Assembly (NCBI GenBank): GCA_029259715.1
Contig: JAJDEP010000012.1
Location: 62,001-126,000 of the forward strand
DNA from: Planctomycetota bacterium
GTDB lineage: Bacteria; Planctomycetota; B15-G4
Reading direction: 5' to 3'
DNA: 64,000 nucleotides
Position 1 is the stretch's first letter; the number at the start of each line of letters is the position of its first letter. The notes under the pieces were generated by a model that saw only the letters and a list, made by a program, of their open reading frames with translations, was not told the DNA's origin and searched no databases. Position numbers and translations under genes: made by a program. Shown here one piece after another: positions 4,748 through 35,430 of this stretch.

Positions 4748-6126
4748 AGCCCGAGAGAACGGTGCTGGTGGTCGACGACGAGGAGTACGTGCGTCAGTCG
4801 CTGGCGGAGATGGTCGGAGGCGAGTCCGACCTGCGCGCCCTGGCCGCCGCCTCGACGGATGAGGCCATGGCGCTCCTGCAACGCGAGTCCGTCGACGTCG
4901 TGCTGGCCGACCTGCAGATGCCCTGCGGAGGCGCCCAGGCCCTGCTCGAACGCACCCGGCCCGACGGCGACGGCGCGGACGGCGGGCCGCCGGTGATCGT
5001 GATCACGGGCGTCGGAACCGTGCCACGGGCCGTCGAGGCGATGAAGGCCGGGGCCTTCGACTTCGTCTCCAAGCCCATCGAGCCCGATGCGCTGATCCTG
5101 CTCCTCCGACGCGCCCTCGAGCACCGTCGCCTGCTCGGTCAGGTGAACTTCCTGCGTGGTGCGCTCAGCGCCCGGCGGCACCGACTGGCGGGCGAAAGCC
5201 CACAGATGGCCCATGTGCGTGGCTTGATCGAGCAGGTCGCGCCCACGGACGCCACCGTGTTGATCACCGGCGAGAGCGGCACCGGCAAGGAACTCGTGGC
5301 GGAGGAGATCCACTTCCGCAGCACGCGCACCGCTGCCAACCTCGTCCGCGTCAATTGCGCGGCGGTGCCCGAGAGCCTGTTCGAGAGCGAGTTCTTCGGC
5401 CACCGGCGCGGTTCCTTCAGCGGCGCCATGGAGGACCGCTCGGGCCGCTTCGCCGAGGCCGAGGGGGGCACCCTGGTCCTCGACGAGATCGGCACCCTGC
5501 GCCCCGAGATGCAGGCCAAGCTGCTGCGGGTGCTCGAGAGCGGCGAATACCAGATCGTCGGCGAGCAGGGCACGCGCATCGCCGACGCCCGGGTCATCGC
5601 GATCTCCAACGAGCCCCTGGCCACCCGGGTCGAAGAAGGCACCTTCCGTGCCGACCTCTACTACCGGTTGGCGATCTTCCCCATCGAGCTGCCGCCCCTG
5701 CGCGAGCGACCCGAGGACGTGGTGCCCCTCGCCCGCCAGTTCCTCGCCCGGCTCCGCTCGCCGGGCGCCCCAGCGGCCGAACTCGAAGCGGCCGAGCTGG
5801 CACCGGGCGTCGACGACATCCTGCACGCCTACCATTGGCCGGGGAACGTGCGTGAGTTGCGCAACCTCATCGAGCGGGCCTCGATCCTCGCGGGCACCGA
5901 GGCTCCCGATGCGGCGCTCTTCGAATCGGTGCTCGAACCGGTGCTCCGCCAGCCCACCACGCACGGCAGTGAGGGTCAGCACCTGCGCACGCGCCTGGCC
6001 GAGACCGAGCGCGAGATCCTGCGCGAGGCCCTGGAGTCGAGCGGCGGACGCCGCAAGGAGGCGGCCGCGAGGCTCGGCATCGACCCCCGCAACCTGTCCT
6101 ACTACTTGCGCAAGCACGACCTGTAG
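4744..6126 (+). CDS. NtrC-family sigma-54 response regulator (pair 1)
   Basis: 460 residues in the classic three-domain order. The receiver (1-125) has phospho-acceptor Asp56 in VLADLQMP and a conserved Lys in SKPIEP. The AAA+ domain (about 150-385) has Walker A GESGTGKE (about 176-183), the sigma-54 contact loop as GSFSGA (about 223-228, in place of GAFTGA) and Walker B LVLDEIG. The C-terminal Fis-type helix-turn-helix is ILREALESSGGRRKEAAARL. It starts on a GTG that overlaps the kinase stop. The next thing downstream is a consensus sigma-54 promoter, with dyads suited to an enhancer between. The natural target is therefore the 6375-12057 operon. Confidence 0.95.
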   Translation: MKPERTVLVVDDEEYVRQSLAEMVGGESDLRALAAASTDEAMALLQRESVDVVLADLQMPCGGAQALLERTRPDGDGADGGPPVIVITGVGTVPRAVEAMKAGAFDFVSKPIEPDALILLLRRALEHRRLLGQVNFLRGALSARRHRLAGESPQMAHVRGLIEQVAPTDATVLITGESGTGKELVAEEIHFRSTRTAANLVRVNCAAVPESLFESEFFGHRRGSFSGAMEDRSGRFAEAEGGTLVLDEIGTLRPEMQAKLLRVLESGEYQIVGEQGTRIADARVIAISNEPLATRVEEGTFRADLYYRLAIFPIELPPLRERPEDVVPLARQFLARLRSPGAPAAELEAAELAPGVDDILHAYHWPGNVRELRNLIERASILAGTEAPDAALFESVLEPVLRQPTTHGSEGQHLRTRLAETEREILREALESSGGRRKEAAARLGIDPRNLSYYLRKHDL

Positions 6127-16321: not shown

Positions 16322-17215
16322 ATGGGCAAGACGACGGGCAGGTGGACACTGGCGTTGGCCGCGGGCCTGCTGCTCGGCGGCACCGCCGCCGCCCAGGGCG
16401 CCAGCGACGAGGCCTACGAATACTTCGCGCGCAACTGTGTGAGCTGCCACACCATCGGCGGCGGCCCCCTCGCCGGCCCCGACCTGGCCGGCCTGCTCGA
16501 CCGCCGCGACCGCGACTGGCTGAGCGCCTTCCTGCTCGACCCGGCCGGCGTCATCGACAGCGGTGACGTCTATGCCCAGGCGCTGCTGCGCGACGCCCGG
16601 GGCGTCTACATGCCGACCCCGCCCGGCATCACGGCCGACCTCGCCGACAAGCTCCTCACCGTCATCGCGGTGGAAGACGGCCTCGACAAGAGCCGCTTCG
16701 CCGGCCTGCAGCTCTCCGACCGGCCGCTCACCCCCGTCGACATCGCCCTCGGACGCCAGCTCTTCAATGGCACGACCGCCTTCGCGAGCGGCTCGCCGGC
16801 CTGCTTCGCGTGCCACACCGTCGAAGGCGCCGCCGGCTTCGGGGGCGGACGGCTCGGCCTCGACCTGACCACCGTCTACGCGCGCATGGAGGGCCGCAAG
16901 GCGCTCGGCGCCTGGCTGGGCGCGCCGCCATCGCCGGTGATGGCGCCCCTGTTCCAGGACGCGCCCCTCGACGCCGACGAGATCCTGGCGTTGACGGCCT
17001 ACCTCAAGCACACGTCGGAGAGCGGCGTGGAGCAGGCGAGTTCGGGCGTGCTCGCCTTCCTGCTCACGGGACTCGGCCTCGCCGCCGTGCTGCTCGTGCT
17101 GTTCGACGTCGCCTGGAAGGACCGCTACCGCTCCACGCGGCGCACGCTCGTCGAGGGTCGACGCAGCCCGCGCCTCGCTTCCCGAGCGGTCGAAGGAATG
17201 GAGGGCACACCGTGA
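16322..17215 (+). CDS. Membrane-anchored diheme cytochrome c
   Basis: 297 residues from the ATG at 16322. A cleavable or anchoring signal peptide ends near TAAAQGAS. Two haem-binding motifs are present, CVSCH (39-43) and CFACH (161-165), each in a separate class I-like domain, with Met ligands likely downstream. A transmembrane helix near 247-270 ([17 protein letters not shown]) anchors the protein with a basic cytoplasmic tail. It is the first gene after the sigma-54 promoter and overlaps narG (GTGA). A leading cytochrome c is unusual for respiratory narGHJI. It fits either an electron acceptor for alternative complex III or a partner of the NarGHI-type enzyme, as in some nitrite-oxidiser clusters. 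Confidence 0.9.
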
Positions 17216-20200
17216 CCGATCCGCTCACCACCGACCGCAGCGTCGGCAACAACCCCGACATCCCCACGGGACCGGTCGGACCCGGCAACCCCTGGATCCA
17301 GGACAGCGTCGACCCCAAGACCCGCTCGTGGGAGGAGTTCTACCGCAACCGCTGGCAGCACGACAAAGTCGTGCGCAGCACCCACGGCGTCAACTGCACG
17401 GGCTCGTGCTCGTGGAACATCCACGTCAAGGACGGCATCGTCGCGTGGGAGATGCAGGCGCTGGACTACCCGCGCCTCGAGAGCGGCATCCCTGCCTACG
17501 AGCCGCGCGGGTGCCAGCGCGGCATCAGCTACTCGTGGTACCTCTACAGCCCGCTGCGGGTGAAGTACCCCTACGTGCGCGGCGCCCTGCTCGACCTGTG
17601 GCGCGAGGCGCGCAACGTGCACGACGACCCGGTCGACGCCTGGAAGTGGCTGCAGTCGGATCCCGAGAAGCGCGCGCGCTACCAACGCGCCCGCGGCAAG
17701 GGCGGCCTGCGCCGGTGCAGTTGGGACACCGCGCTCGAGATCATCTCCGCCTCGACGGTGCACACCGTCAAGGAGCACGGCCCCGACCGCGTGGCCGGCT
17801 TCTCGCCCATCCCCGCCATGTCGATGGTCAGCTACGCCGCCGGCTCGCGCATGTTGCAGCTGCTGGGCGGCGTGTCGCTCTCCTTCTACGACTGGTACTG
17901 CGACCTGCCCAATGCCTCTCCCGAGACCTGGGGTGAGCAGACCGACGTGAACGAGTCGGCCGATTGGTACCACTCCAAGTTCCTGGCCGTCATGGGCAGC
18001 AACCTGAACATGACGCGCACGCCCGACGTGCCCTTCGCCAGCCAGGCCCGCACCAACGGCACGAAGATGGTGGTGTTCTCGCCGGACTTCAACCAGGTGG
18101 CGAAGTACGCCGACGAGTGGATCGCGCTCAACGCCGGCCAGGACGGCGCGTGGTGGATGGCGGTGAACCACGTGATCCTGAAGGAGTTCCACCACGAGCA
18201 GCAGGAGCCGTTCTTCCTCGACTACGTGGCCCGGTTCACCGACTCGCCCTACCTGGTCGAGATCAGCCCCAAGGGCGGCGCCTACGAATCGGGCCGCATG
18301 CTGCGCGCCGGGCGCCTCACGACCTACGCCGACGAGCAGCACGGCGAGTGGAAGTTCCTGCAGTGGGACCGCAACGACGACCGCCCCAAGATGCCCATGG
18401 GCAGCTCGGGCCACCGCTGGCAGGACCAGAAGGGCCAGTGGAACATGAAGCCCGAGGACGGCAAGGACGGCAGCCCCATCGACGCCGAGCTGACCTTCCT
18501 CTCGAAGAACGACGAGGTCGTGCAGGTGCGCTTCGACGACTTCGCCGGCGGTGGCTCGACCCACCGCGGCGTGCCCGTGCGCACGCTGCAGACCGACGAC
18601 GGCCCCGTGAAGGTGGCCACGGTCTACGACCTGCTCATGGCCCAGTACGGCGTGCCCCGCGGGCTGCCGGGCGACTACCCCGAGAGCTACGACGACGACG
18701 CCGTCTACACGCCGGCCTGGGCCGAGCGCTACACAGGCATCGACCGGGCGACCATCACGCGCTTCGCCCGCGAGTGGGCCTCCACCGCCAAGCACACCGG
18801 TGGCAAGTGCACGGTCATCATCGGCGCCGGCATCAACCACTGGTACCACGCCAACCTGATGTACCGCGCCGCCATGCACGCGCTCATGTTCTGCGGGTGC
18901 GTGGGTACAAATGGTGGAGGGCTCGCCCACTACGTCGGCCAGGAAAAGCTGGCGCCCATGGAGTCGTGGTCGTCCATCGCCATGGCCAAGGACTGGTATC
19001 CGCCGTCACGCCTGCAGAACGCGCCGAGCTGGCACTACGTGCACACCGACCAGTGGCGCTACGAGCGCAGCTTCTGCGACTACCACACCGTCCCCGAGGA
19101 CCAGGCCGAGGGCAGCCTGGCCGAGGGCCACACGATAGACGCGAACGTGCGCGCGGTGCGCAACGGCTGGCTGCCCTTCTACCCGCAGTTCGACAAGAGC
19201 CCGCTGGAGGTCTGCCGCGACGCGCAGGCTGCCGGCGCCGACAGCAACGCCGAGATCGTCGACTACGTGCGGGACAAGCTCGCCAAGCGCGACCTGACCT
19301 TCTCCATCGAACGGCCCGACGCCGAGGAGAACTGGCCGCGGGTCTGGTTCATCTGGCGCGGCAATGCCCTCATGTCGTCGGCGAAGGGGCACGAGTACTT
19401 CCTCAAGCACTACCTGGGCACGCACGAGAACACGATCTCGCAGGACCTCGCCGAGGGTCACGTGAAAGAGGTCGAGTGGTTGGAGCACGCGCCCACCGGG
19501 AAGATGGACCTCGTCGTCGACCTCAACTTCCGCATGGACACGTCGGCGCTCTACTCCGACATCATCCTGCCCGCGGCCACCTGGTACGAGAAGGCCGACC
19601 TCAACAGCACCGACATGCACAGCTTCATCCACCCGCTGGCCAAGGCCGTGCCGCCGTGCTGGGAGAGCCGCTCCGACTGGGACATCTTCAAGGCCATCGC
19701 CAAGGGTGTGAGCGACCTGGCGCCCAAGCACCTGCCGGGCAAGCACAAGGACGTGATCACGCTCCCGCTGGCCCACGACTCGCCGGCAGAGATCGCGCAG
19801 CCCGAGATCAAGGACTGGGCGCGAGGCGAGTGCGAGGCCATCCCGGGCAAGACCATGCCGGGCCTGAAGGTCATCGAGCGCGACTACGAGAACCTCCACA
19901 ACCAGTTCATCTCCTACGGACCGCTGGTGAGGGAGGCCGGCCTCGGCGCGCATGGCACCCACTACGCCGTCGACGACGTCTACGACGACGCGCTCGAGCA
20001 CGGCCCGACGCAGTCGTGGGGCGGCGGCAAGTACCCGTCGCTGAAGCAGGACACCGAGGTCTGCGACGTGGTCCTCAACTTCGCCACCGTCACCAACGGC
20101 GAGCTGGCCTGGCGTTCGTACAAGGACATGGAGACCAAGACCGGGCTCGAGCTGGCCGACCTCGCCGAGAAAAGCCGCTCGGTGCGCACCAACTACCAGG

Positions 20201-20907
20201 ACCTGCAGGCCCGACCGCGACGCCTGCTCAACAGCCCCATGTGGTCGGGGCTCACCGAGAACGGCCGGGCCTACGCGCCCTTCACCTACAACCGCGAGAA
20301 GCTCGTGCCCTGGCGCACGCTCACCGGTCGGCAGCACTTCTACCTCGACCATGAGGGGTACATCGCGTTCGGCGAGCACCTGCCCACCTACAAGCCCAAG
20401 CCGCGGCCGGACGCCTACGCCGACCTGGTCTTCAGCGAGGGGATAGGCAAGACGCTGCAGCTCAACTACCTCACGCCCCACGGCAAGTGGCACATCCACT
20501 CGACCTACGGCGACAACCACCGCATGTCGACGCTGTCACGGGGCTGCGAACCCTTCTGGATCAACGACAAGGACGCGGCCTCCATCGACATCGAGGACAA
20601 CGACTACGTCGAGGTGCACAACGACCACGGCGTGGTGGTCACGCGGGCGGCCGTCTCGGCGCGCATCCCGCGCGGCATCTGCATCATCTACCACTCGCCC
20701 GAGCGCACGCTCTCGGTGCCCAAGAGCCCGCTGCGCAACAAGCGCCGCGCCGGCGGCCACAACAGCCTCACGCGCACCCGGCTCAAGCCGAACCTGATGG
20801 TCGGCGGCTACGGCCAGTTCACCTACCACTTCAACTACTGGGGCCCGACGGGCTGTAACCGGGACACGCACATCCTCGTGCGTAAGTGCCCCGAGCTCAT
20901 CTGGTGA
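17212..20907 (+). CDS. narG: Respiratory nitrate reductase alpha subunit (NarG type)
   Basis: 1231 residues, close to the 1247 of E. coli NarG, from the GTG at 17212 overlapping the cytochrome stop. There is no twin-arginine signal, so the active site faces the cytoplasm. The FS0 cluster ligands are H58, C62, C66 and C101 (HGVNCTGSC ... GC). The molybdenum ligand is Asp231 in [13 protein letters not shown], followed by the NarG signature [15 protein letters not shown]. It binds Mo-bis-MGD and reduces nitrate to nitrite with electrons from NarH. Homologous cytoplasm-facing enzymes also work as nitrite oxidoreductases, and motif reading alone does not decide the direction. The open frame upstream of 17212 is a shadow of the cytochrome gene. 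Confidence 0.96.
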
Positions 20908-20928: not shown

Positions 20929-22419
20929 ATGGACGTCCGCTCACAGATCGCGCTGATCTTCCACCTCGACAAGTGCATCGGTTGCCACACCTGCAGCGTC
21001 GCGTGCAAGAACATCTGGACCGACCGCAAGGGCACCGAATACATGTGGTGGAACAACGTCGAGACCAAGCCGGGCACCGGCTATCCGACGCGCTGGGAAG
21101 ACCAGGAGAACTACAAGGGCGGCTGGGAGCTCAAGGGCGGCAAGCTGCGCCTGAAGAGCACGGGGCGCGGCCGCATCATCCCCAACATCTTCCACAACCC
21201 GTCCATGCCCAGCATGGACGACTACTACGAGCCCTGGACCTACCGCTACGAGGACCTGTTCACCGCCCCCGAGGGCGATGACCAGCCCATCGCCCGCGCG
21301 GTGTCGATGGTGACGGGCGAGCCCATCGACGTGGAGGCCGGCCCCAACTGGGACGACGACCTCGGCGGCTCGCCGATCTACGCCGAGAACGACCCCAACC
21401 TCGAGGAGCTGACGCCCGAGGTGAAGCAGATGATGTTCGAGATCGAGCGCATGGCGTTCTTCTATCTCCCGCGCATCTGCAATCACTGCCTGAACCCGAG
21501 CTGCGTGGCCAGCTGCCCCTCGGGAGCGATGTACAAACGCGGTGAGGACGGCGTGGTGCTGCTCAACCAGGAACGCTGCCGCGCCTGGCGCAGTTGCGTC
21601 TCGGCCTGCCCCTACAAGAAGACCTACTACAACTGGTCCACGGGCAAGAGCGAGAAGTGCATCCTCTGCTTCCCGCGGCTCGAGTCGGGTCAGGCGCCGG
21701 CGTGCTTCCACTCCTGCGTCGGGCGCATCCGCTACCTCGGCAACATCCTCTACGACGCCGACAAGATCGTGGAGTGCGCGAGCCGCCCCGACAACGAGCT
21801 GGTGGACGCCCAGCGTGAGCTGATCCTCGACCCGAACGACCCCGAGGTCATCGCGGCCGCGCGCAAGAACGGCATCTCCGACGGCATCATCGACTCGGCC
21901 CAGAACTCGCCGGCCTACCGCTTCGCCAAGGAGTGGAAGCTGGCCCTGCCGCTGCACGTCGAGTTCCGCACCTTCCCCATGCTGTTCTACGTCCCGCCGC
22001 TGATGCCGGTCATCGCCAACCAGGACAGCGGCTCGGTGCGCAACGAGACCGAGGACCTCTTCGCCGACATCGAGAAGGCGCGGGTGCCCATCAAGTACCT
22101 GGCGCGGCTGTTCTCGGCCGGCAACGAGGGCAAGGTCCGCTACGCCCTGCGCAAGCAGCTCGCCGTGCGCCTGTGGCGCCGCCACAAGACCGTCGGCGAC
22201 ATCTCCGCTGAGCAGGCCGAGCGCGCGTTGCTCGAGGCCGAGTGCAGCCCCGAGGAAGCCGAGGCCATCTACCAGCTCACCGCCCTCGCCTCCATGGAGG
22301 ACCGCGTGGTCGTGCCGCCGGCGCAGCGCGAGATGGCCATCGAAGCCCTCGAGGACCCGCTCGAGTTCAAGCAGTCCACCGGCTTCGGGTTCCTCACCGG
22401 GCCGGCCCGGGGAGCCTGA
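20929..22419 (+). CDS. narH: Nitrate reductase beta subunit (iron-sulfur, NarH type)
   Basis: 496 residues. Four cysteine clusters are visible: C16-C19-C22-C26 (CIGCHTCSVACK), C184-x2-C187-x4-C192-x3-C196 (CNHCLNPSCVASC), C217-x2-W220-x2-C223-x3-C227 (CRAWRSCVSAC) and CILCF...CFHSC. The Trp in place of a Cys in the third set is the NarH signature for a [3Fe-4S] centre. The protein carries electrons from the NarI haems to NarG. It follows narG by 21 bp, with a short GAGGAACTGAA ribosome-binding region. Confidence 0.96.
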   Translation: MDVRSQIALIFHLDKCIGCHTCSVACKNIWTDRKGTEYMWWNNVETKPGTGYPTRWEDQENYKGGWELKGGKLRLKSTGRGRIIPNIFHNPSMPSMDDYYEPWTYRYEDLFTAPEGDDQPIARAVSMVTGEPIDVEAGPNWDDDLGGSPIYAENDPNLEELTPEVKQMMFEIERMAFFYLPRICNHCLNPSCVASCPSGAMYKRGEDGVVLLNQERCRAWRSCVSACPYKKTYYNWSTGKSEKCILCFPRLESGQAPACFHSCVGRIRYLGNILYDADKIVECASRPDNELVDAQRELILDPNDPEVIAAARKNGISDGIIDSAQNSPAYRFAKEWKLALPLHVEFRTFPMLFYVPPLMPVIANQDSGSVRNETEDLFADIEKARVPIKYLARLFSAGNEGKVRYALRKQLAVRLWRRHKTVGDISAEQAERALLEAECSPEEAEAIYQLTALASMEDRVVVPPAQREMAIEALEDPLEFKQSTGFGFLTGPARGA

Positions 22420-22421
22420 GC

Positions 22422-23003
22422 ATGAGACCGAACGCAGACGTCCACGACGCCCTGGCCCGGCTGGTCGAGTATCCCCGCGACGGTTGGTTCGAATCGATGC
22501 GGGAAGCCTCGCTGGTCATCGGCGCGAGTTGTCCCGAGGCGGCCGAGCTGTTGACCCCGTTCCTCACCTTCGCGGCGGACCGTCCGCTGTGGGAGCTCGA
22601 AGAGCACTTCACGCGCACCTTCGACAACTCCGACGAGCGCGCCCTCGACATGGGCTGGCACGCCTTCGGCGAGACCTACACCCGGGGCTCGTTCATGGCG
22701 GCCATGCGCGGGCGCCTGCGCGAGACCGGCGTCGAGGAGAACGGCGAGCTGCCCGACCACCTGAGCCACATGCTCGCCCTGGTCGGCCGCTGCCCCGAGG
22801 ACGAGGCCGCGGGACTGGCCGGCGACATCATGGCGCCGTCGGTGGCGAAGGTGCGCGAGGCGCTGGTGAAGCGGAGCGACCCCTGGGCCCACGTGCTCGC
22901 CACCGTCCTGGCGGTGCTCGCGCTGCACGAGCCGGACACGGCCCCCCACCAACCGGCGAGCGCCAACGCGCGCGACACCGGCGAGGACGACGCCCATGCA
23001 TGA
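22422..23003 (+). CDS. narJ: Nitrate reductase assembly chaperone (NarJ/TorD type)
   Basis: 193 residues from the ATG at 22422. It is an all-helical protein with the TorD-family pattern: LARLVEYPRDGW near the start, WELEEHFTRTFDNSD near residue 60 and PDHLSHMLALVGRCP in the middle. NarJ is a cytoplasmic chaperone needed for insertion of the Mo cofactor into NarG and is not part of the final enzyme. Its place between narH and narI and its 8-bp overlap with narI are the standard narGHJI order. Confidence 0.92.
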   Translation: MRPNADVHDALARLVEYPRDGWFESMREASLVIGASCPEAAELLTPFLTFAADRPLWELEEHFTRTFDNSDERALDMGWHAFGETYTRGSFMAAMRGRLRETGVEENGELPDHLSHMLALVGRCPEDEAAGLAGDIMAPSVAKVREALVKRSDPWAHVLATVLAVLALHEPDTAPHQPASANARDTGEDDAHA

Positions 23004-23685
23004 CGAGCTGCTCTTCGCGATCCTGCCCTACGTCGCCATGGGCGTGTTCCTGATCATGACCATCCAGCGCTATCGCCAGCGCACCTTCACCTACTCCAGC
23101 CTCAGCTCGCAGTTCCTCGAGAACCGGCACCACTTCTGGGGCTCGGTGCCGTTCCACTACGGCCTGCTGTTCGTGCTGTTCCTGCACCTGGCGGGGCTGT
23201 TCATCCCCGACGTGATCCTGGCCTGGAACGCCGCGCCCCTGCGGCTGTTCATCACCGAGGCCACCGGCCTGGCCATGGCCGTGATCACGCTCATCGGGCT
23301 GGGCAACATCGTGCTGCGACGCATGGGCGACACCAAGTCGCGCACCGTCACCTCCGTGAGCGACTGGATCGTCTACGCCCTCATCGGCGTGCAGGTGATC
23401 TCAGGCATCGCCGTCGCCGTATTCCACGGCTGGGGCAGCTCGTGGTTCGCCACCTCGCTCACGCCCTGGCTCTGGTCGCTCTTCAAGCTCCAGCCGGAGA
23501 TCGGCTACGTCACCGCCCTGCCCTGGATGGTGAAGCTCCACATCGTCAACGCCTGGGTGCTGATCGGGTTCTTCCCCTTCACGCGCCTGGTGCACGTGCT
23601 CGTGGTGCCCAACCCCTACCTGTGGCGCCGCACCCAGGTCGTGCTCTGGAACTACGACCGCCACAAGGTCCGGAGCAAGGACTGA
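22996..23685 (+). CDS. narI: Nitrate reductase gamma subunit, cytochrome b (NarI type)
   Basis: 229 residues with five transmembrane helices. The paired haem-ligand His are visible in HFWGSVPFHYGLLFVLFLHLAG (helix 2) and KLHIVNAWVLIGFF...LVH (helix 5), matching E. coli NarI closely (LHxxx...PFTRLVHVLVVP here). It anchors NarGH to the inner membrane and oxidises quinol on the periplasmic side, so turnover generates proton-motive force. The start ATG lies inside the last codons of narJ. Confidence 0.95.
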   Translation: MHDELLFAILPYVAMGVFLIMTIQRYRQRTFTYSSLSSQFLENRHHFWGSVPFHYGLLFVLFLHLAGLFIPDVILAWNAAPLRLFITEATGLAMAVITLIGLGNIVLRRMGDTKSRTVTSVSDWIVYALIGVQVISGIAVAVFHGWGSSWFATSLTPWLWSLFKLQPEIGYVTALPWMVKLHIVNAWVLIGFFPFTRLVHVLVVPNPYLWRRTQVVLWNYDRHKVRSKD

Positions 23686-23724: not shown

Positions 23725-25383
23725 ATGACCGCCCACGACGCCCCTCCGGAACGCCTCCCCCGGCACACGCTGCCCGCATGGGATGTGGAGGACGAGGGCT
23801 TCTGGCAGAGCAAGGGCAAGCAGATCGCGAGCCGCAACCTGTGGATCTCGATCCCCAACCTGCTGTGCGGCTTCTCGGTGTGGCTGTACTGGGGCATGGT
23901 CGCGAAGTTCATCCAGCGCGCGCACTTCGCGGACGGGTCGCTGTTCGACTTCACCTTCATGAACGACGGGCAGACCTTCGGCGGCGACGCCTACCGCGGC
24001 CTGCTGTTCACCTTGCCGGCCGTGGCCGGCCTCGCCGGCGCGACGCTGCGCATCCCCAACTCGTTCATGATCGCCCTCTGCGGCGGGCGCAACGTCAAGT
24101 TCATGACGACCCTGCTGCTGTTGCTGCCCGCCCTCGGCGCCGGCATCGCCCTGCAGGACCCGCACACGCCATTCTCCACCTTCGTCGTGCTCGCCATGTT
24201 GTCGGGCGTGGGCGGCGGCGCCTTCGCGTCGTCGATGTCCAACATCAGCTTCTACTACCCGAAGCGCATGCAGGGACTCGCGCTGGGCCTCAACGCGGGC
24301 CTCGGCAACGCCGGCGTGTCGGTGATGCAGTTCCTGCTGCCCTGGATCATCACCTTCGGCGCCTTCGGTTCTCTCGGCGGCGAGCCCTACCAGGTTGGTG
24401 ACTCCCCGCTCTGGATCCAGAACGCCGCCCTGGTGTGGGTGCCGGTGCTCGCGTTCCTGGTGGTCCTCGCCTTCCTGTTCATGAACAACATGCCGCAGCA
24501 CAAGTGCGGCCCGACGACCGTCGCCGTGGCCCGCTACCTGTGGCTCACGGTGCTCGGCTTCATCGGCACCGGCGTGGCGGTGTGGCTGCTGATCACACCG
24601 TGGGGCAACTTCCCCGTCCTGCTCAAGACCTTCCTGATCCTCCTGATCGCCGTGGTCGTGACGCTCACGTGCATGAAGACGCTCACGCCCAAGGAGACCA
24701 AGGAAGGCCTCAACAAGCAGTTCGCCATCTTCAACAACAAGCACAACTGGGTCATGACCTGGCTGTACACGATGACGTTCGGTTCGTTCATCGGTTACGC
24801 CAACGCGTTCCCCAAGCTCATCGACGACGTCTTCGGCGTGATCCGCGTCGGTCCCGACGGCAGCCCGCTGGTCGAGGGCATCCTCAACCCGAACGCGCCG
24901 ATCTCGTCGAAGTACATCTGGATCGGCGCGGGCGTGGGCGCCCTGATCCGTCCCGTGGGCGGCTGGCTCAGCGACAAGCTCGGCGGCGCGCGCGTCACCC
25001 ACTGGGACACCATCGTCATGATCGGCGCCACCATCGGCGCGGGCTGGTTCGTCTCGCAGGCCAGCCAGTCGCCCGACCCGCAGCAGTTCTTCATGCCCTT
25101 CCTGCTGCTCTTCGTACTGCTCTTCGCCACCACCGGCATCGGCAACGGCTCCACCTTCCGGATGATCCCGATCATCTTCGAGAAGGAGCAGGCCGGACCG
25201 GTGCTGGGTTGGACGTCCGCCATCGCCGCCTACGGCGCCTACCTGATCCCCAAGATCTTCGCGACGCAGATCGAGGCCGGCACGCCCGAGTACGCGCTCT
25301 ACGGCTTCGCCGGTTACTACGCCAGCTGCCTGGTCGTGAACTGGTGGTTCTACGCGCGCAAGGGAGCTGAGATCCCGTGCTGA
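23725..25383 (+). CDS. narK: Nitrate/nitrite transporter, MFS (NarK/NarU type)
   Basis: 552 residues with about 12 transmembrane helices. A soluble N-terminus contains WDVEDEGFWQSKGKQIASRNL. The nitrate signature regions are SGVGGGAFASSMSNISFYYP and TTGIGNGSTFRMIP, with the substrate-binding Arg expected in helices 2 and 8. A long insertion (FAIFNNKHNWVMTWLYTMTFGSFIGYANAFP) begins the second half, as in NarK/NarU. It exchanges or co-transports nitrate and nitrite across the inner membrane for the cytoplasm-facing NarG. It shares 7 bp with the next gene. Confidence 0.94.
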   Translation: MTAHDAPPERLPRHTLPAWDVEDEGFWQSKGKQIASRNLWISIPNLLCGFSVWLYWGMVAKFIQRAHFADGSLFDFTFMNDGQTFGGDAYRGLLFTLPAVAGLAGATLRIPNSFMIALCGGRNVKFMTTLLLLLPALGAGIALQDPHTPFSTFVVLAMLSGVGGGAFASSMSNISFYYPKRMQGLALGLNAGLGNAGVSVMQFLLPWIITFGAFGSLGGEPYQVGDSPLWIQNAALVWVPVLAFLVVLAFLFMNNMPQHKCGPTTVAVARYLWLTVLGFIGTGVAVWLLITPWGNFPVLLKTFLILLIAVVVTLTCMKTLTPKETKEGLNKQFAIFNNKHNWVMTWLYTMTFGSFIGYANAFPKLIDDVFGVIRVGPDGSPLVEGILNPNAPISSKYIWIGAGVGALIRPVGGWLSDKLGGARVTHWDTIVMIGATIGAGWFVSQASQSPDPQQFFMPFLLLFVLLFATTGIGNGSTFRMIPIIFEKEQAGPVLGWTSAIAAYGAYLIPKIFATQIEAGTPEYALYGFAGYYASCLVVNWWFYARKGAEIPC

Positions 25384-26057
25384 AGTCGCTCTCCGTCAAC
25401 GCGCGCATCTTCCTCGTGGTGGCCGTCGGGTTCGGCGTCTTCGCCATCGCCGCCAGCGCCGACTTCCAGGCGCCCAACGTGCACCAGGGCTATGCGCCCG
25501 AGCAGCCCATCGCCTACAGCCACCGCACCCACGCGGGCGAGCTCGGCATCGACTGCCTCTACTGCCACTACGGCGCCCGCACGAGCCCGGTGGCCGGCAT
25601 CCCCGCCACCGGCCTGTGCATGAACTGCCACGCCACCGTGACGGCGGGTCTCGATGCGGTGGTGGCCGAGCGCGAGCAGGCCGAGGCGGAGAGCCGCCCG
25701 GCTGCGACCATCCTCTCGCCCGAGATCGCCAAACTCTGGGCGGCCCAGGGGCTCGACGTCAACGGCCAGCCGGCCGGTGAGCCCCACCCGATCCCCTGGG
25801 TGCGTGTGCACAACCTGCCCGACTTCGTGGCCTTCGACCACAGCGTGCACGTCAACCGCGGGCTGGCCTGCGCCACGTGTCACGGGCCGGTGCAGACCAT
25901 GGAGCGCGTGCGCCAGGAGAGCGACCTGAGCATGGGCTGGTGCCTCGACTGCCACCGCGGCAAGGCCGCCGACCCGACCCTCGTGCTCAACGCCGAACAC
26001 GGGCGCCTGCCCGCCGGCGAGCACGTCAGCACCGATTGCAGCGCCTGCCACTACTGA
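25377..26057 (+). CDS. actA: Alternative complex III subunit A, pentaheme cytochrome c
   Basis: 226 residues from a GTG at 25377 inside the narK stop region. A single N-terminal helix (IFLVVAVGFGVFAIAAS) acts as signal anchor. Five CxxCH motifs are present: CLYCH, CMNCH, CATCH, CLDCH and CSACH, exactly the number in ActA. Conserved His in YSHRTHAGELGIDC and FDHSVHVNRGLAC would be distal ligands, as in class III (c7-type) cytochromes. In the complex ActA sits in the periplasm on ActB and takes electrons from its iron-sulfur chain. It is the first of six act functions in uninterrupted order. Confidence 0.93.
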   Translation: MLKSLSVNARIFLVVAVGFGVFAIAASADFQAPNVHQGYAPEQPIAYSHRTHAGELGIDCLYCHYGARTSPVAGIPATGLCMNCHATVTAGLDAVVAEREQAEAESRPAATILSPEIAKLWAAQGLDVNGQPAGEPHPIPWVRVHNLPDFVAFDHSVHVNRGLACATCHGPVQTMERVRQESDLSMGWCLDCHRGKAADPTLVLNAEHGRLPAGEHVSTDCSACHY

Positions 26058-26066
26058 CGCCCCGCG

Positions 26067-29000
26067 ATGGACATCGAGCCAGGAACCCCGAACCGAGCCG
26101 ACATGACGACGCCGTCCGAGCAACATTGGTTCAAGGACCCCGACGCCCACCGCAGCGCCGTCGGCAGCCGTGCCGACGACCGCGCGGCGAGCCGCGAAGG
26201 ACACGCCGACGCGCGCGACACGCAGTTCGACCGGCGTTCCTTCCTGCGCCTGGTGGGTTTCAGCGTCGCCGCCGCGGGCGTGTCCGGCTGCTCCCCTGCG
26301 CCACCGCAGACGGTCATGGCCCTGTTCGAGCCGCCCGTCGAGATCGTCCCCGGGCGCGCCTACTGGATCGCCACCACGAGCTGGGCCGACGGCTCGGGCA
26401 GCGGCGTGCTGGTGCGTTGCCGTGACGGACGCCCGATCAAGGTGGAGGGCAACCCGAGCCACCCGGTCAACCAGGGCGGCCTCACCGCGGCGTGCCAGGC
26501 CTCCTTGCTCGCCCTCTACGACAGCCACCGCTTCGACGGCCCCCGTCGCGACGGCGCGGCTGCCACCTGGGACGAGGTCGACACGGCCGTGCGCGCGAAG
26601 CTCGATGAGGTCCGCAGCGCGGGCGGAACCGTGCGGCTGCTCACCTCGACGCTGACCGGGCCGTCGACCCTCGAACAGATCGACGCCCTGCTCGCCAGCG
26701 TGCCCGACGGACGGCACGTCATGTACGACGCCCTCTCGTGCTCGGCGCTGCTCGACGCCCAGCAGGCACTGCGCGGGGTGCGGGTCCTGCCGCGCTACGA
26801 CTTCTCGAGAGCCAAGGTGCTCGCGGCCTTCGACGCCGACGTGCTCGGCACCTGGATCTCCCCCGCCGGCTTCGCCGCCGACCGCCAGCAAGCCCGCGAC
26901 GTGCACGCCGAGCCGCCGCGCATGAGCCGGCACTGGCAGCTCGAGGCGCGGCTCTCGCTCACCGGCACCCGGGCCGACCGGCGCGTGCGCCTCGCCCCCT
27001 GGGAGACGACCGCCGCCCTGGCCGAGCTCGGCAGCGAGCTGGCCGGTTTCGCCGGCGTCACCGCGCCGGGCCCGCGTCCCGACGCGTCGGCCCTGCCGCA
27101 GGCCACGCGCACGGCCTTGCACGAACTCGCGCAGGAACTGTGGGCCCAGCGTACCGAGAGCCTCGTCGTGTGTGGCACCAACGCTCGCGACGCGCAGCTG
27201 CTCACCGCGTGGATCAACGCGCAGCTCGGCAGCGAAGGCACGACCTTCCACCTCGACACACCGTCGCTGCAACGTCAGGGCGACGACGCCGCCCTGCAAC
27301 GCCTGCGCGACGAATTGCTGACAGGCGCCGTCGACCTCCTGATCGTGGCCGGCGCGAATCCCGCCTACGATCTGCCGGACTTCGCCGAGGCCCTCGGCCA
27401 GGCCGGCACGCTGGTCAGCCTGGCGTCACTGCCAGACGAGACCTCGGCCCTCGCGACCATCGTCTGCCCTGAGCCCCACGAGCTCGAGCGCTGGGACGAC
27501 GCCGAACCGATCGCCGGGCTCTACAGCACCACCCAGCCGACGGTCCCCGCGCTGCGGGACACACGCACCCTGCGCGCCAGCCTGGCCCGCTGGCGCGGTG
27601 ACGCGCGCGACGACCGTGAGTTGCTCGTCGATCACTGGCGACGCGAGCTCGACAGCCGACGCCCGTCGCCGCGCACCGGCTTCGATGCCTGGTTCCATGC
27701 CGTGCTCGAGCGGGGCTGGACCGAGCTCCCGTCCGCGCAGCCCTTTCGGCCCGCGGCGTTCAGGCCGGCGCCGGTGGCCGCGGCGCTCACGCGCATCGCC
27801 GCCAACGCCGGGGCGCCCGCCGACGGCGCACTGGGCCTGGTGCTGCACCCGAAGGTCGGTCTGCTCGACGGACGTGGCGCCCACAACCCCTGGCTGCAGG
27901 AGCTGCCCGACCCGGTCACCAAGGTCGTGTGGGACAACCACGTCGACCTCTCGCCGGCGACGGCCGAGCGCCTGGGCCTGCGCACCGGCGACATCGTCAC
28001 CGTCAGCGCGACCGATGACGCACCCTCGGCAGACTTGACCCTTCCCGTGCTCGTCCAGCCCGGCCAGGACGATCGAGTGGCGGCCATCGCCCTGGGTTAC
28101 GGCCGCGCAGGGACGGACCGCTTCACCGCGGTGGGCCCGGAGTGGCTGCAGGGTCGCCGCACGGTGGAGCCCGGCGGGACGATCGGCGCCAACGTTGCCC
28201 CCTGGCTGCGCTGGCGTGCGGGCGCCCTCGATTACAGCGGCCGCACGGTGCGCCTCACCGCCACCGGTGGCCGGCACGAGCTGGCCATCACCCAGGACCA
28301 CCACAACCTCTCGGTGCCCGCCCACCTCGCACCGCCCGGCGGCGAGGTCCGCGACGCCGTGCGCCTGGTGACCTTCCCTCAGCTGCAGGCCGACCCCGAG
28401 CACGTCCTGGGCGGCGGCCACACGCCCGTCGGCGAACTCTGGGACGACGACCACATCCCCGCCGGCCACCACTGGGGCATGGCCATCGACCTCTCCGCCT
28501 GCACCGGCTGCTCGGCCTGCGTGGTGGGTTGCCAGGCCGAGAACAACATCCCCGTGGTGGGCCGCGACGAGGTGCGCCGCCACCGCGAGATGAGCTGGCT
28601 GCGCATCGACCGCTACTACGCCGACCAACCCGACGGCGGCGTCGACGTCGTGCACCAGCCGATGATGTGTCAGCACTGCGCCCACGCCCCCTGCGAGACG
28701 GTGTGCCCGGTGCTCGCGACCATGCACAGCAGCGAGGGCCTCAACACCCAGGTCTACAACCGCTGCGTGGGCACGCGCTACTGCGCCAACAACTGCCCCT
28801 ACAAGACGCGCCGCTTCAACTGGTTCGACTACGCCCACGACGACCAGCTGCTGAACATGGTGCTCAACCCGGAGGTCACCATCCGCAGCCGGGGCGTGAT
28901 GGAGAAGTGCTCGCTGTGCGTGCAGCGCATCCAGGGCGCCAAGGCCCTGGCCGGACGCGAGGGCCGCGAGCTCGCCGACGGCGACATCCAGACCGCCTGC

Positions 29001-29178
29001 CAGCAGAGCTGCCCGACCCGGGCCATCACCTTCGGCGACCTCAACGACCCGAACAGCGCCTTGTCGCGCCGCATCGCGACGGGTCGGTCCTACCGTGCGC
29101 TCGAGGAGCTCAACGTCCAGCCCGGCGTGCACTACCTGGCGGACGTCCGCAACGACGCCGGAAGCAAGGGAGGCGGGC

Positions 29179-29186
<8 letters not shown>
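26067..29186 (+). CDS. actB: Alternative complex III subunit B, molybdopterin-like/iron-sulfur fusion
   Basis: 1039 residues. An N-terminal twin-arginine signal (FDRRSFLRLVGF, near residues 53-64) leads to a lipobox-like GVSGC. ActB is therefore exported folded and probably lipid-anchored. Residues of about 90-760 form the molybdopterin-oxidoreductase-like domain, in which this family carries no Mo. The last 250 residues are a NrfC/PsrB-like ferredoxin domain with CTGCSACVVGC, CQHCAHAPCETVC, CVGTRYCANNC and CSLC...CQQSC, for four clusters. An alternative start is ATG 26103 (MTTPSEQHWF), which has family-like N-terminal sequence. It lies 9 bp after actA and overlaps the next gene by 8 bp. Confidence 0.93.
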
Positions 29187-31157
<1,971 letters not shown>

Positions 31158-31164
<7 letters not shown>

Positions 31165-31736
31165 GCACGCGCCTGTCATTCCTGATCGTGGCTGTGGTTG
31201 TGCTGGCCGTCCTGTTCGGCCTCGCGGCCCTGTCCCGCCCCGATCCGAGCCGACGCAACATCGAGGTGTTCACCGAGATGGCCTACAGCAAGGCCTACGA
31301 GACCCTCACCGCCAACCCGAACTTCGCGGACGGGCGCACGACCCAGGACCTCGTTCCCGGGGTGGTGCCGCGCGGGGCCTCGTTCTTCCCCTACGGCGCG
31401 GGCGCCGCCGAAGCCCGGCGCGCCGGCGACGCGTTGACCGACCCCCTGGGACCGGACAGCGCCGCCCTCCGGGCCGAGGGCGCCGAGCTCTACCGCATCT
31501 ACTGCGCGCTGTGCCACGACGCCCGCGGCGGCGGCGCCGGGCCCGTCGTGTTGCGCGGCATGCTCCCGCCCCCCTCGCTCCACGGCGACCGGGCCCTCGG
31601 CATGGCGGACGGCGAGATCTTCCACGTGCTCACCCGCGGTCAGGGGAACATGGCGGCCTACGCCGCCCAACTCGACACCCACGAACGCTGGCAGGTGATC
31701 CGCCACGTTCGGCGCCTGCAGGCGGAGGGACCGTGA
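31158..31736 (+). CDS. actE: Alternative complex III subunit E, monoheme cytochrome c
   Basis: 192 residues from the ATG at 31158, overlapping the stop of the fused actCD gene. An N-terminal anchor helix (FLIVAVVVLAVLFGLAAL) is followed by PDPSRRNIEVFTEMAYSKAYE, typical of ActE (M-x-x-S...A near the start). One haem motif, CALCH, is at 116-120, with the likely axial Met in GNMAAY (near residue 156). ActE is a class I cytochrome thought to pass electrons from ActA to a soluble or oxidase-bound acceptor. GTGATG links it to actF. Confidence 0.92.
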
Positions 31737-32920
31737 TGGACGCCTTACGACCCGGAGCCTCGCAACCCATGGGCCCGGGGCTGCGCACGAGCCTGCGCCT
31801 CGCCGCCGTGCTCGGCGGACTGGTCTTCCTCGTGGGCCTCTTCGCCGCGCCCGAGCGCGTGTGGGGCGGCTTCCTGATGGCCTTCGTCTACCTCGCGGGC
31901 CTGGCCCTGGCCGGCCCCGTGTTCCTGGCCTTCCTCAACCTCGTCGGCGCGCGCTGGTCGGTGGTCGTGCAGCGGGTCCCCGAGGCGATGGCCGCGGCCC
32001 TGCCCCTGGCGGGCCTGCTCGGCCTGGTGCTGCTCTTCGGCACCCACAACCTCTACGAGTGGTCACACGAAGCCGCCGTCGAGCACGACGCGCTGCTGCA
32101 GCAGAAGTCGGGCTGGCTGAACACCACCGGATTCGCCCTGCGGATGCTCGCGATCTTCGCCCTGTGGATCCTGTTCTCGCGCAAGGTCGTGAGCCTCTCG
32201 CGCCGGTTCGCCGCCTGCGGCGACGCCGAACTGGGACGCACGCGCGCACGCTGGTCGGCGGCCTTCATCGCGGTGGTGGCGATCACTTACTCCGTGGCCA
32301 GCATGGACTGGCTCATGTCCCTCGAGCCGCATTGGTTCTCCACCCTCTTCGCCCTGATGCACTTCTCCGGGATGGCCGCCGCCGGTTGTGCCGCCGCCCT
32401 GCTGATGGTGCTGCTGCTCGAGCGCCGCGGCGCGCTGCGGGGCGTGCTCAACGCCGAGCACCTGCACGACATGGGCAAGCTGCTGTTCGCCCTCACCCTG
32501 ATCTGGGCGTATTGCTGGTTCTGCCAGTACATGCTCATCTGGTACACGGACATCCCCGAAGAGACCACGCACTACCTGCTGCGCAAGCAGGGTCCGTGGT
32601 GGCTGCTCGTGCAGGCAACGCTGGTGCTGAAGTGGGGCGTGCCCTTCGTCGCGCTCATGGCGCGGCGGACCTGTCGCAACAGGAAGGTCCTCGCCCAGGC
32701 CGCCGGCGCCGTGCTGCTCGGCCACGCCCTCGACCTCTCCGTGCAGGTCGGGCCGCCGCTCATGGGCGCCGCTCCGGTGCTGGGGCTGTGGGAGATCGCG
32801 CCGGTGGTCGGCGCCGTCGCCCTCTTCTTCGAGCGCACCCTGTCCGCCCTGTCCCGCGTCCCCGCCGTCCCCGCGACGCACCCGCACCTGAGCGACAGCC
32901 TCACCTATCAGACGCCTTGA
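31736..32920 (+). CDS. actF: Alternative complex III subunit F, quinol-binding membrane protein
   Basis: 394 residues from the ATG at 31736 (GTG 31733 is also in frame). There are about ten transmembrane helices, a paralogue in fold of ActC/NrfD. Features include FGTHNLYEWSHEAAVEHDALLQQKSGW and MDWLMSLEPHWFSTLFALMHFSG, both characteristic ActF blocks with conserved His and Asp along a possible proton path. The ORF is open upstream, but that segment lies across actE. With ActA to ActE this completes the complex: quinol oxidation coupled to cytochrome c reduction, replacing the bc1 complex. Confidence 0.92.
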   Translation: MDALRPGASQPMGPGLRTSLRLAAVLGGLVFLVGLFAAPERVWGGFLMAFVYLAGLALAGPVFLAFLNLVGARWSVVVQRVPEAMAAALPLAGLLGLVLLFGTHNLYEWSHEAAVEHDALLQQKSGWLNTTGFALRMLAIFALWILFSRKVVSLSRRFAACGDAELGRTRARWSAAFIAVVAITYSVASMDWLMSLEPHWFSTLFALMHFSGMAAAGCAAALLMVLLLERRGALRGVLNAEHLHDMGKLLFALTLIWAYCWFCQYMLIWYTDIPEETTHYLLRKQGPWWLLVQATLVLKWGVPFVALMARRTCRNRKVLAQAAGAVLLGHALDLSVQVGPPLMGAAPVLGLWEIAPVVGAVALFFERTLSALSRVPAVPATHPHLSDSLTYQTP

Positions 32921-32965: not shown

Positions 32966-34768
32966 ATGGACGTGAAGAACAAGGCCACCAGCATCAGTCT
33001 CTTCAGCCTGAAGACGCGCCCCATGCGCGCCTTCCACATGAGCTGGTTCGCGTTCTTCCTGTGCTTCTTCGCCTGGTTCGGCATCGCGCCGCTGATGGCC
33101 GTCGTGCGCGACGAGCTGTCCCTCACCAAGGAGCAGATCGGCAACACGATCATCGCCTCGGTGGCCATCACCATCGTCGCGCGACTGTTCATCGGCTGGC
33201 TCTGCGACCGCATCGGCCCCCGGCTCAGCTACACCTTCCTGCTCATCTTCGGGTCGTTGCCGGTGATGGGCATCGGGCTCGCCACCGACTACATGAGCTT
33301 TCTGTTCTTCCGGCTCGGCATCGGCGTGATCGGCGCGTCCTTCGTGATCACCCAGTACCACACGTCGGTCATGTTCGCGCCCAACTGCGTGGGCACGGCC
33401 AACGCGACCTCGGCCGGCTGGGGCAACCTGGGCGGCGGCGTGACCCAGATGGTCATGCCGCTGGTCATGGCGGCCTTCCTCGCCTTCGGTTTCACCGACG
33501 AGTCGAGCTGGCGACTGTCGATGGTCGTGGCCGGCGCCGTCTGCTTCCTCGTCGGCGTGGCCTACTACTTCTTCACCACCGACCTGCCCGACGGCAACTT
33601 CAAGGACCTGCGCGCCCGGGGCGAGATGCCCTCGGTCGAGAAGACCAAGGGCGCCTTCCTGCTGGCCATGAAGGACAAGCGCGTCTGGGCCCTGTTCATG
33701 ATCTATGCCGCGTGCTTCGGCATCGAGCTGACCATCAACAACATCGCCGCGCTCTATTACATGGACTCCTTCGGCCTCGGCCTGACGACGGCGGGGCTGG
33801 TGGCGGGCCTGTTCGGATTGATGAACGTCTTCGCCCGCACCCTGGGCGGCTTCGTCAGCGACAAGTTCGTGCAAAAGCACGGCCTGAAGGGACGCGTCCG
33901 CTGGCTCTTCATCGCCCTGTTCATCGAGGGCGTCGCGCTGATCTTCTTCTCGCAGATGCGCGTCATCGCCCTGGCCATCCCGCTGATGATCGTGTTCAGC
34001 CTGTTCACGCAGATGTCCGAGGGCGCGACCTACTCCATCGTCCCGTTCATCAACAAGAAGGCCCTGGGGGCCGTGGCCGGCATCGTCGGCGCCGGCGGCA
34101 ACATGGGCGCCGTGGCCGCGGGCTTCCTGTTCCGCTCGCCGGACCTGACCTATCCACAGGCCCTGCTGATCCTGGGCGGAGCGGTCACGGTCCTCTCCTT
34201 CCTCGCCTGGGCGGTGACTTTCAGCCCCGAGACCGAGACGTCCGTCGCCAAGGAGCACGCCACGGCGATGGCGGCCCGTCGCAAGGCCATGGCCCATCGC
34301 AAGCCGCTGCGCGAACTCGTCCCGGGCCTCAAGCACATCCGGCCCATGGACGCGCTGCGCATCTACCTCGGCATCGCCCTGGTGCTCAAGGGCGTCTACT
34401 TCATCACGAACATGTCCGAGCTCGAGGGCACGCTGGGCGAAGGCATCGGGCAGGGACAGGCCATGATCGCCTGGTCGGTGGTGTTCGCCCACGTCATCGG
34501 TGGGGCCAGCCTGGCCCTGGGCTTCGTCACCCGCGTGGCGTCGGCGGCCAACGCCGTGATCCTGCTGGGTGCCGTCGTGGTCCACCTCACCGGGTCGTAC
34601 ACCGGAACGGTGGAAGGCAGCCTGCTGGGATCGAACACCGACTTCCAGCTGACCCTGTTCACCTTCTTCTCCCTCGCCCTGCTGGTCTGGCGCGGATCGG
34701 GCCCGCTCTCCCTCGATCACCTGCTGCGCCTCGACAGCGACAAGGAGCCCGACCTGTTCGCCGCCTGA
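32966..34768 (+). CDS. Second NarK-type transporter fused to a DoxX-like membrane domain
   Basis: 600 residues. Residues of about 20-445 are a 12-helix MFS nitrate/nitrite transporter of the NarK1 kind (SWFAFFLCFFAWFGIAPLM, the nitrate-signature-like GWGNLGGGVTQMVMPL and GAGGNMGAVAAGFLF). After a basic loop (MAARRKAMAHRKPLRELVPGL) comes a four-helix DoxX-like domain from about residue 460: RIYLGIALVLKGVYFI, HVIGGASLALGFVTRVASAANAVILLG and LTLFTFFSLALLVW. DoxX-family domains occur in quinone-linked and redox-stress membrane proteins. The fusion is the odd feature of this gene. The start has an 11-bp-spaced GGAAGCGAGAG region and lies 45 bp after actF. Confidence 0.87.
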   Translation: MDVKNKATSISLFSLKTRPMRAFHMSWFAFFLCFFAWFGIAPLMAVVRDELSLTKEQIGNTIIASVAITIVARLFIGWLCDRIGPRLSYTFLLIFGSLPVMGIGLATDYMSFLFFRLGIGVIGASFVITQYHTSVMFAPNCVGTANATSAGWGNLGGGVTQMVMPLVMAAFLAFGFTDESSWRLSMVVAGAVCFLVGVAYYFFTTDLPDGNFKDLRARGEMPSVEKTKGAFLLAMKDKRVWALFMIYAACFGIELTINNIAALYYMDSFGLGLTTAGLVAGLFGLMNVFARTLGGFVSDKFVQKHGLKGRVRWLFIALFIEGVALIFFSQMRVIALAIPLMIVFSLFTQMSEGATYSIVPFINKKALGAVAGIVGAGGNMGAVAAGFLFRSPDLTYPQALLILGGAVTVLSFLAWAVTFSPETETSVAKEHATAMAARRKAMAHRKPLRELVPGLKHIRPMDALRIYLGIALVLKGVYFITNMSELEGTLGEGIGQGQAMIAWSVVFAHVIGGASLALGFVTRVASAANAVILLGAVVVHLTGSYTGTVEGSLLGSNTDFQLTLFTFFSLALLVWRGSGPLSLDHLLRLDSDKEPDLFAA

Positions 34769-34887
34769 TCTCCCACCGCACGCGCGGCGCGCCCTCACCC
34801 ACAAACACGCCACACCCTCACACCATGCACCGTTCACGCCATACGCCCCGCACACCCCGCACGCCCCTCCGACTCCGGACCCCTCCC

Positions 34888-35430
34888 ATGACCCCCACCG
34901 ATTCGACCGCCCCGTCCTGCGCCCACGACCTCGATGCCTTTGGGATCCTGCGGCAATGCCACGACCACATCCTGTCGAAGCTCGAGGTGCTCGAGGCCGT
35001 GGCCGTCGACCTCGAGCGGCGCGCGGAGTTCTCCGACGCGGAACTGGCGCGGCTGTGCGACGTGATCACGATGCTCGACACCGCGATCCCCATCCACAGC
35101 GCGGACGAGGAGCAGACCCTGTTCCCCGCCCTGCGCGCGCGGCCGCCCTTCGAGGGCACCGAAGGCACGCCCATGGACTGCATGGAGCAGGAGCACGGGC
35201 TGCACAAGGCGCTCATGATCGCACTCAAGCGGGCCATCATGAAGCGCGACCCCGCGGCGACGGCGACGGCCGCGCGGCACATGGTGACCGAGTATCGGGG
35301 ACACATCGACAAGGAGAACTCGATCCTGTTCCCCATGGCCCAGCAGGTGCTGAGCGACCCCGCCGAGGTCCGCGCCCTGACCCTCGCCATGCAGGCGCGG
35401 CGCCGGGCTCTGGACGTCGACGCCTGCTAG
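34888..35430 (+). CDS. Hemerythrin-domain protein
   Basis: 180 residues from the ATG at 34888; an in-frame ATG at 34825 would add a basic Arg/Thr/Pro-rich stretch. The four-helix diiron fold is shown by HDHILSKLEVLE, HSADEEQTLFPAL, EQEHGLHKALMIALK and HIDKENSILFPMAQQ, which supply the His/Glu ligands. The pattern resembles the catalytic half of YtfE/RIC proteins that repair iron-sulfur clusters after nitric oxide damage, but the ScdA_N domain is absent. Position after the nitrate operon suggests NO sensing or protection. A 119-bp gap before it leaves open whether it shares the operon transcript. Confidence 0.88.
   Translation: MTPTDSTAPSCAHDLDAFGILRQCHDHILSKLEVLEAVAVDLERRAEFSDAELARLCDVITMLDTAIPIHSADEEQTLFPALRARPPFEGTEGTPMDCMEQEHGLHKALMIALKRAIMKRDPAATATAARHMVTEYRGHIDKENSILFPMAQQVLSDPAEVRALTLAMQARRRALDVDAC

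Follow-up and report, generated by a model that had tools for sequence, protein, structure and literature searches.

A probable NarK1/NasA-type nitrate transporter fused to a DoxX-like domain accompanies respiratory nitrate reductase genes in Planctomycetota and four other phyla

DoxX proteins are widespread and, to our knowledge, mostly without a known function. The DoxX-related DoxD protein is a subunit of thiosulfate:quinone oxidoreductase. Quinol is handled both by NarI and by alternative complex III. NarK1 is a nitrate/proton symporter and NarK2 is an antiporter, and the Paracoccus NarK is a fusion of the two types (PMC5217062). The denitrification membrane complex of Pseudomonas aeruginosa includes NarK2, and NarK1 was not found there (PMC5658584). 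Planctomycetota genomes are known to carry nar genes with a six-gene cluster that was left unassigned and regarded as possibly NrfAH-like (PMC10732223).

The window, by which we mean the whole 64,000-nucleotide stretch of planctomycetal DNA that was analysed, contains narGHJI, narK2, the alternative complex III genes actABCDEF and, last in the operon, a gene in which a transporter and a DoxX-like domain are fused. The features are:

17200 to 20907, forward strand: narG (TIGR01580, 1495 bits, above the cut-off; start not fixed)
20929 to 22419, forward strand: narH (PF14711, PF13247)
22422 to 23003, forward strand: narJ (PF02613)
22996 to 23685, forward strand: narI (PF02665)
23725 to 25383, forward strand: separate gene for a NarK2-type (E. 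coli NarK/NarU-like) nitrate/nitrite transporter (phmmer matches to 4u4t and 4iu8)
25377 to 26057, forward strand: actA, for the pentahaem cytochrome of alternative complex III (its translation contains five CxxCH)
26067 to 29186, forward strand: actB, molybdopterin-type plus FeS (QrcB/QrcC-like matches)
29173 to 31164, forward strand: actC and actD in one reading frame (NrfD-type match to DsrP, 2.4e-17)
31158 to 31736, forward strand: actE, cytochrome c (PF13442)
31733 to 32920, forward strand: actF, assigned from position and conservation (no Pfam match)
32966 to 34768, forward strand: narK-doxX fusion gene, 600 amino acids, its full length kept in 45 other loci
32966 to 34225, forward strand: NarK1/NasA-type MFS transporter part, residues 1-420, with R73 (TM2), R291 (TM8) and two glycine-rich NarK motifs
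34226 to 34342, forward strand: basic cytoplasmic linker, residues 421-459, variable among relatives (mean column conservation 0.55)
34343 to 34726, forward strand: four-helix DoxX-like domain, residues 460-587 (Pfam match at 463-539)

The content and order of the six genes at 25377-32920 are those of alternative complex III, as against the possibly NrfAH-like identity considered in PMC10732223. ActC (NrfD-like) and ActD share a single frame in the window and apparently also in loci L018, L019 and L054; in most relatives they are two pieces. A hemerythrin gene (HHE, PF01814, 2.9e-17) lies at 34885-35430, directly 3' of the fusion, and does not adjoin the fusion in relatives.

The fusion gene runs from an ATG at 32966 to the end of a stop codon at 34768, with 600 codons and no internal stop. 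Pfam searches of its product give MFS_1 at residues 27-302 (E=5.9e-37) and DoxX (PF07681) at residues 463-539 (E=1.0e-8, 36.1 bits, above the gathering score of 23.6), within the stretch 455-600 where an earlier reading of the sequence alone had expected it; the DoxX part searched by itself matches PF07681 at E=3.7e-10. Both domains are matched in all 37 members of the fusion alignment, DoxX at 0.01 or better. AlphaFold2, run with 37 fused sequences, predicts 12 helices for the transporter, one in the linker and then four more (460-481, 496-518, 522-543 and 558-576) with a mean pLDDT of 74.6, and the DoxX domain modelled alone again forms four helices (pLDDT 81.4). The linker carries nine K/R against four D/E and is basic; the outer loops are not. 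This charge pattern is consistent with an N-in/C-in topology. The frame, the Pfam matches and the predicted helices thus bear out the architecture proposed by the sequence-only reading, which had described a 12-helix MFS transporter, a basic loop and four helices of DoxX pattern in a single frame of 600 residues, and the topology prediction it had called for agrees with it.

A scan of one genome per species found the same fusion elsewhere, in 45 further full-length copies across five phyla. They are 64-82% identical, each a single uninterrupted frame of some 590-620 codons, and their hosts are mainly Planctomycetota, with others in Acidobacteriota, Bdellovibrionota, Myxococcota and Candidatus Krumholzibacteriota. 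The domain occurs at an identity of at least 47% in 15 of 392 Planctomycetota genomes, the window's own included, in frames of at least 600 codons bar one that is broken by a contig edge. Because one host, Bythopirellula polymerisocia Pla144, is a cultured isolate, metagenome binning is no explanation. An error of sequencing or assembly joining two genes is ruled out by the 45 independent full copies, that of the isolate among them. A same-frame match in Bythopirellula (L023) had raised a triple fusion NarK-DoxX-NarK2; this is ruled out by a stop between the two genes.

The first description of the transporter part as NarK can be refined. Its TIGR00886 (NarK) match in NCBIfam has E=1e-88 and, at 297.9 bits, falls slightly short of the curated cut-off of 311.7; the NarK2-type neighbour is likewise below it. 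That neighbour matches E. coli NarK (4u4t, 2.8e-75) and NarU (4iu8, 3.5e-66) in phmmer, unlike the fusion protein, which gave no match to E. coli NarK in a sequence search at 0.001. Both substrate arginines, R73 and R291, and both glycine-rich motifs, AGWGNLGGG and GIVGAGGNMGAV, are invariant in 37 sequences. The arginines were matched to those of the NarK2-type protein by spacing (R73-R86 to R109-R122, R291-D299 to R409-D417); when the profiles of the two transporter types were compared, only the region of the first glycine-rich motif aligned, so that the arginine match rests on motif spacing. The nearest unfused relatives are 61-72% identical over the transporter, and those sampled adjoin nirB and nasA or assimilatory-type molybdopterin reductases. 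Since these closest relatives adjoin assimilatory genes, the transporter part is of the NarK1/NasA type, by family most likely a nitrate/proton symporter. The E. coli NarK type belongs to the separate gene at 23725-25383. By family, both types would thus be present in one operon, the NarK1 type being joined to DoxX and not to NarK2.

The fused form is a companion of nitrate respiration. Where flanking DNA was examined, nar and/or act genes flank 41 of 47 DoxX-bearing loci. Of the other six, four come from short contigs or from the vicinity of a contig end. The remaining two, L056 and L058, do not, and the DNA examined around their fusions contains neither nar nor act genes. Only 4 of 33 relatives that have no DoxX domain were flagged for nar or act genes, and three of these flags are of little weight, as L066 ends inside the transporter and L079 and L097 have short, weak FeS matches. 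This leaves L065 as the only genuine respiratory exception. L065 has a respiratory operon and no DoxX domain, and its sister in the tree, L064 (Halobacteriovoraceae), encodes the same domain as a separate gene (4548-5006) directly downstream of narK in a nar operon. The fusion gene lies behind actF, as in the window, between narI and narK2, or before narG. Alternative complex III was considered as the constant partner and is ruled out, as nar genes occur without act genes in the examined DNA of 15 loci (including L020, L026, L044, L047, L050, L052 and L061). The constant partner of the fusion is Nar. L020 and L026 are Phycisphaerales genomes in which a highly similar fusion stands beside a divergent Nar.

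When the fused state is mapped on a tree built from the transporter part alone, as few as two changes explain it, whereas shuffles require 26.6. The association is thus strong and reflects few independent events, and the Fisher value for DoxX presence against a nar/act flank (p 8.6e-12) overstates it and is not readable as a probability. Because the root was placed at the midpoint, on a very long outgroup branch, the tree does not fix the direction of change, a single gain of the fusion or its loss in the assimilatory branch. That the fusion and its operon occur together in five phyla suggests that the whole unit was transferred. A link to respiration is supported, in that the fused form accompanies narGHJI.

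Mean column conservation over 46 fusions is 0.85 for the transporter, 0.55 for the linker and 0.70 for the DoxX part, and R465, K475, W503, R523, N529, Q561, W575 and D584 of the latter are invariant. Helices 13 and 14 each have a face on which the conserved positions gather (p 0.003 and 0.04, respectively); the same test found no significant conserved face on helices 15 and 16. A profile-profile comparison with 43 free-standing DoxX proteins from the same phylum as the window gave 99.4%. Fused and free forms have in common R465, R523, G519 and the GxG within the terminal motif, and in most also S582 and D584. They differ at four positions. At 475, H is present in 29/43 free DoxX proteins and K in the fused domain; at 479, K in 41/43 against F or Y in all fused sequences; at 509, E in 41/43 against H (or N) in all fused sequences; and at 561, E in 27/43 against Q. 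These replacements make the site more positive. A free-standing DoxX protein with intermediate residues (K, F, H, E; L117:1423-1923) is the closest free relative found and is not near nar genes. The fused domain is called DoxX-like, and is by its residues a diverged DoxX subgroup, because it has lost the near-universal lysine and glutamate of free DoxX and kept both arginines. It looks like an old DoxX scaffold whose in-membrane site has been re-tuned to be more positive.

These features suggest a possible role. A NarK1/NasA-type nitrate importer with a modified four-helix DoxX domain would serve respiratory nitrate reduction by NarGHJI. A division of labour is likely, in which the fusion would start nitrate uptake and the NarK2-type protein would then swap nitrate for nitrite. 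The DoxX part would act in cis as a respiration-specific accessory domain that adjusts or assists nitrate transport. R465, K475, H509, R523 and N529, which judging from the helix faces probably line one site, would form a candidate in-membrane site for a small respiratory ligand (nitrite, nitrate or quinol). A cis-acting accessory domain with such a putative site is the reading we tentatively favour, as quite possible and still short of probable. It builds on the observed fusion, its conservation, its company of genes and its residue pattern, and adds to them a predicted mode of transport, a putative ligand and a putative regulation. As a counterpoint, helix packing alone might account for the conserved polar residues. 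The more specific proposal of a ligand-sensing gate, whose positive in-membrane site would read nitrite, nitrate or quinol and set the rate of import, is unlikely on present sequence evidence.

Three other explanations bear on the same observations. The DoxX-like domain might dock the transporter, keeping it beside the respiratory nitrate reductase or beside the NarK2-type transporter, which would bring nitrate to its site of reduction; a contact with a complex was also among the ideas of the sequence-only reading. Such docking would account for Nar linkage in nearly all loci with long enough context, the separate doxX gene adjacent to narK in L064 fits a partner able to act in trans, and NarK2 has a place in the P. 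aeruginosa denitrification complex, although NarK1 was not found in it (PMC5658584). The Nar proteins of L020 and L026, however, are divergent (NarG about 46% and NarI about 30% identity) beside a fusion that is 76-78% identical, which argues against an interface closely fitted to NarI, and the invariant residues are polar and lie inside the helices, not on an obvious outer surface. We consider docking rather improbable. That the four extra helices merely aid folding, insertion or oligomerisation of the transporter, with no ligand, would agree with a domain that tolerates more change than the transporter (0.70 against 0.85), with DoxX-less relatives that work in assimilation and with the respiratory operon of L065. 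Packing alone, however, rarely demands charged and polar intrahelical residues that are invariant across several phyla, and a purely stabilising domain appears distinctly unlikely.

The remaining alternative takes up the proposal of the sequence-only reading that the DoxX domain is a quinone-reactive unit tying nitrate/nitrite traffic to the quinone pool. It could appeal to the role of DoxD in thiosulfate:quinone oxidoreductase and to an operon shared with NarI and alternative complex III as quinol-handling proteins. The domain, however, contains no cysteine and no haem motif, its match to DoxD (PF04173) is below the cut-off (17.3 against 22.7 bits, E 0.0047), it has lost the K479 and E509 that nearly all free DoxX proteins have, and searches with Foldseek against the PDB at E 0.001, phmmer and hmmsearch gave no solved structural relative. 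The proposal thus found no specific support, and we regard quinone coupling as very doubtful. Function should not be carried over to this domain from DoxX or DoxD.

Each half of the protein belongs to a known family. What appears to be undescribed is that the two are combined, that the combination is confined to the respiratory branch and that the residue set is altered. A literature search, with subscription papers and domain-architecture lists outside its range, found no paper that combines DoxX with a nitrate transporter or reports a NarK-DoxX fusion. A DoxX domain fixed to a transporter of predictable substrate, in the respiratory branch only, offers a handle on the function of DoxX domains, and its tail may mark respiratory against assimilatory NarK1/NasA transporters in genomes. 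The fusion also bears on how, in nitrate respiration, net nitrate uptake by symport begins and is then restrained once nitrate/nitrite exchange takes over. If the ligand-gate proposal were true, it would give an example of a DoxX domain with a regulatory role and of a nitrate transporter regulated in cis.

The closest described systems each share part of this arrangement. NarK1/NasA-type transporters of the nitrate/nitrite porter family (MFS) are alike in 12 helices, two substrate arginines and two glycine-rich motifs; the nearest are mostly beside nasA or nirB, whereas the fusion has a DoxX-like domain added at its C terminus and keeps company with respiratory narGHJI. The DoxX family (PF07681) shares the profile match, four helices, the arginine of the first helix, G-x-x-(T)R after the second helix and the terminal GxGxxSxD; in the fused domain H/K/E/E has become K/F/H/Q, and a transporter is attached. 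DoxD (PF04173) weakly resembles the C-terminal half of the domain at the level of profiles, but the match is below the cut-off and no sulfur genes were recognised around the fusion in the window operon. The nar genes with an alternative-complex-III-like cluster are the same type of operon as here, and several of our matches (the OFTM genomes) come from the study that described them (PMC10732223), whose text contains neither the word transporter nor the word DoxX; the window adds the NarK-DoxX fusion. The Paracoccus NarK likewise joins a NarK1-type symporter of nitrate respiration to a second membrane domain on a variable linker (PMC5217062), but here that second domain is DoxX-like and not a transporter, and the NarK2-type protein is encoded by a gene of its own.
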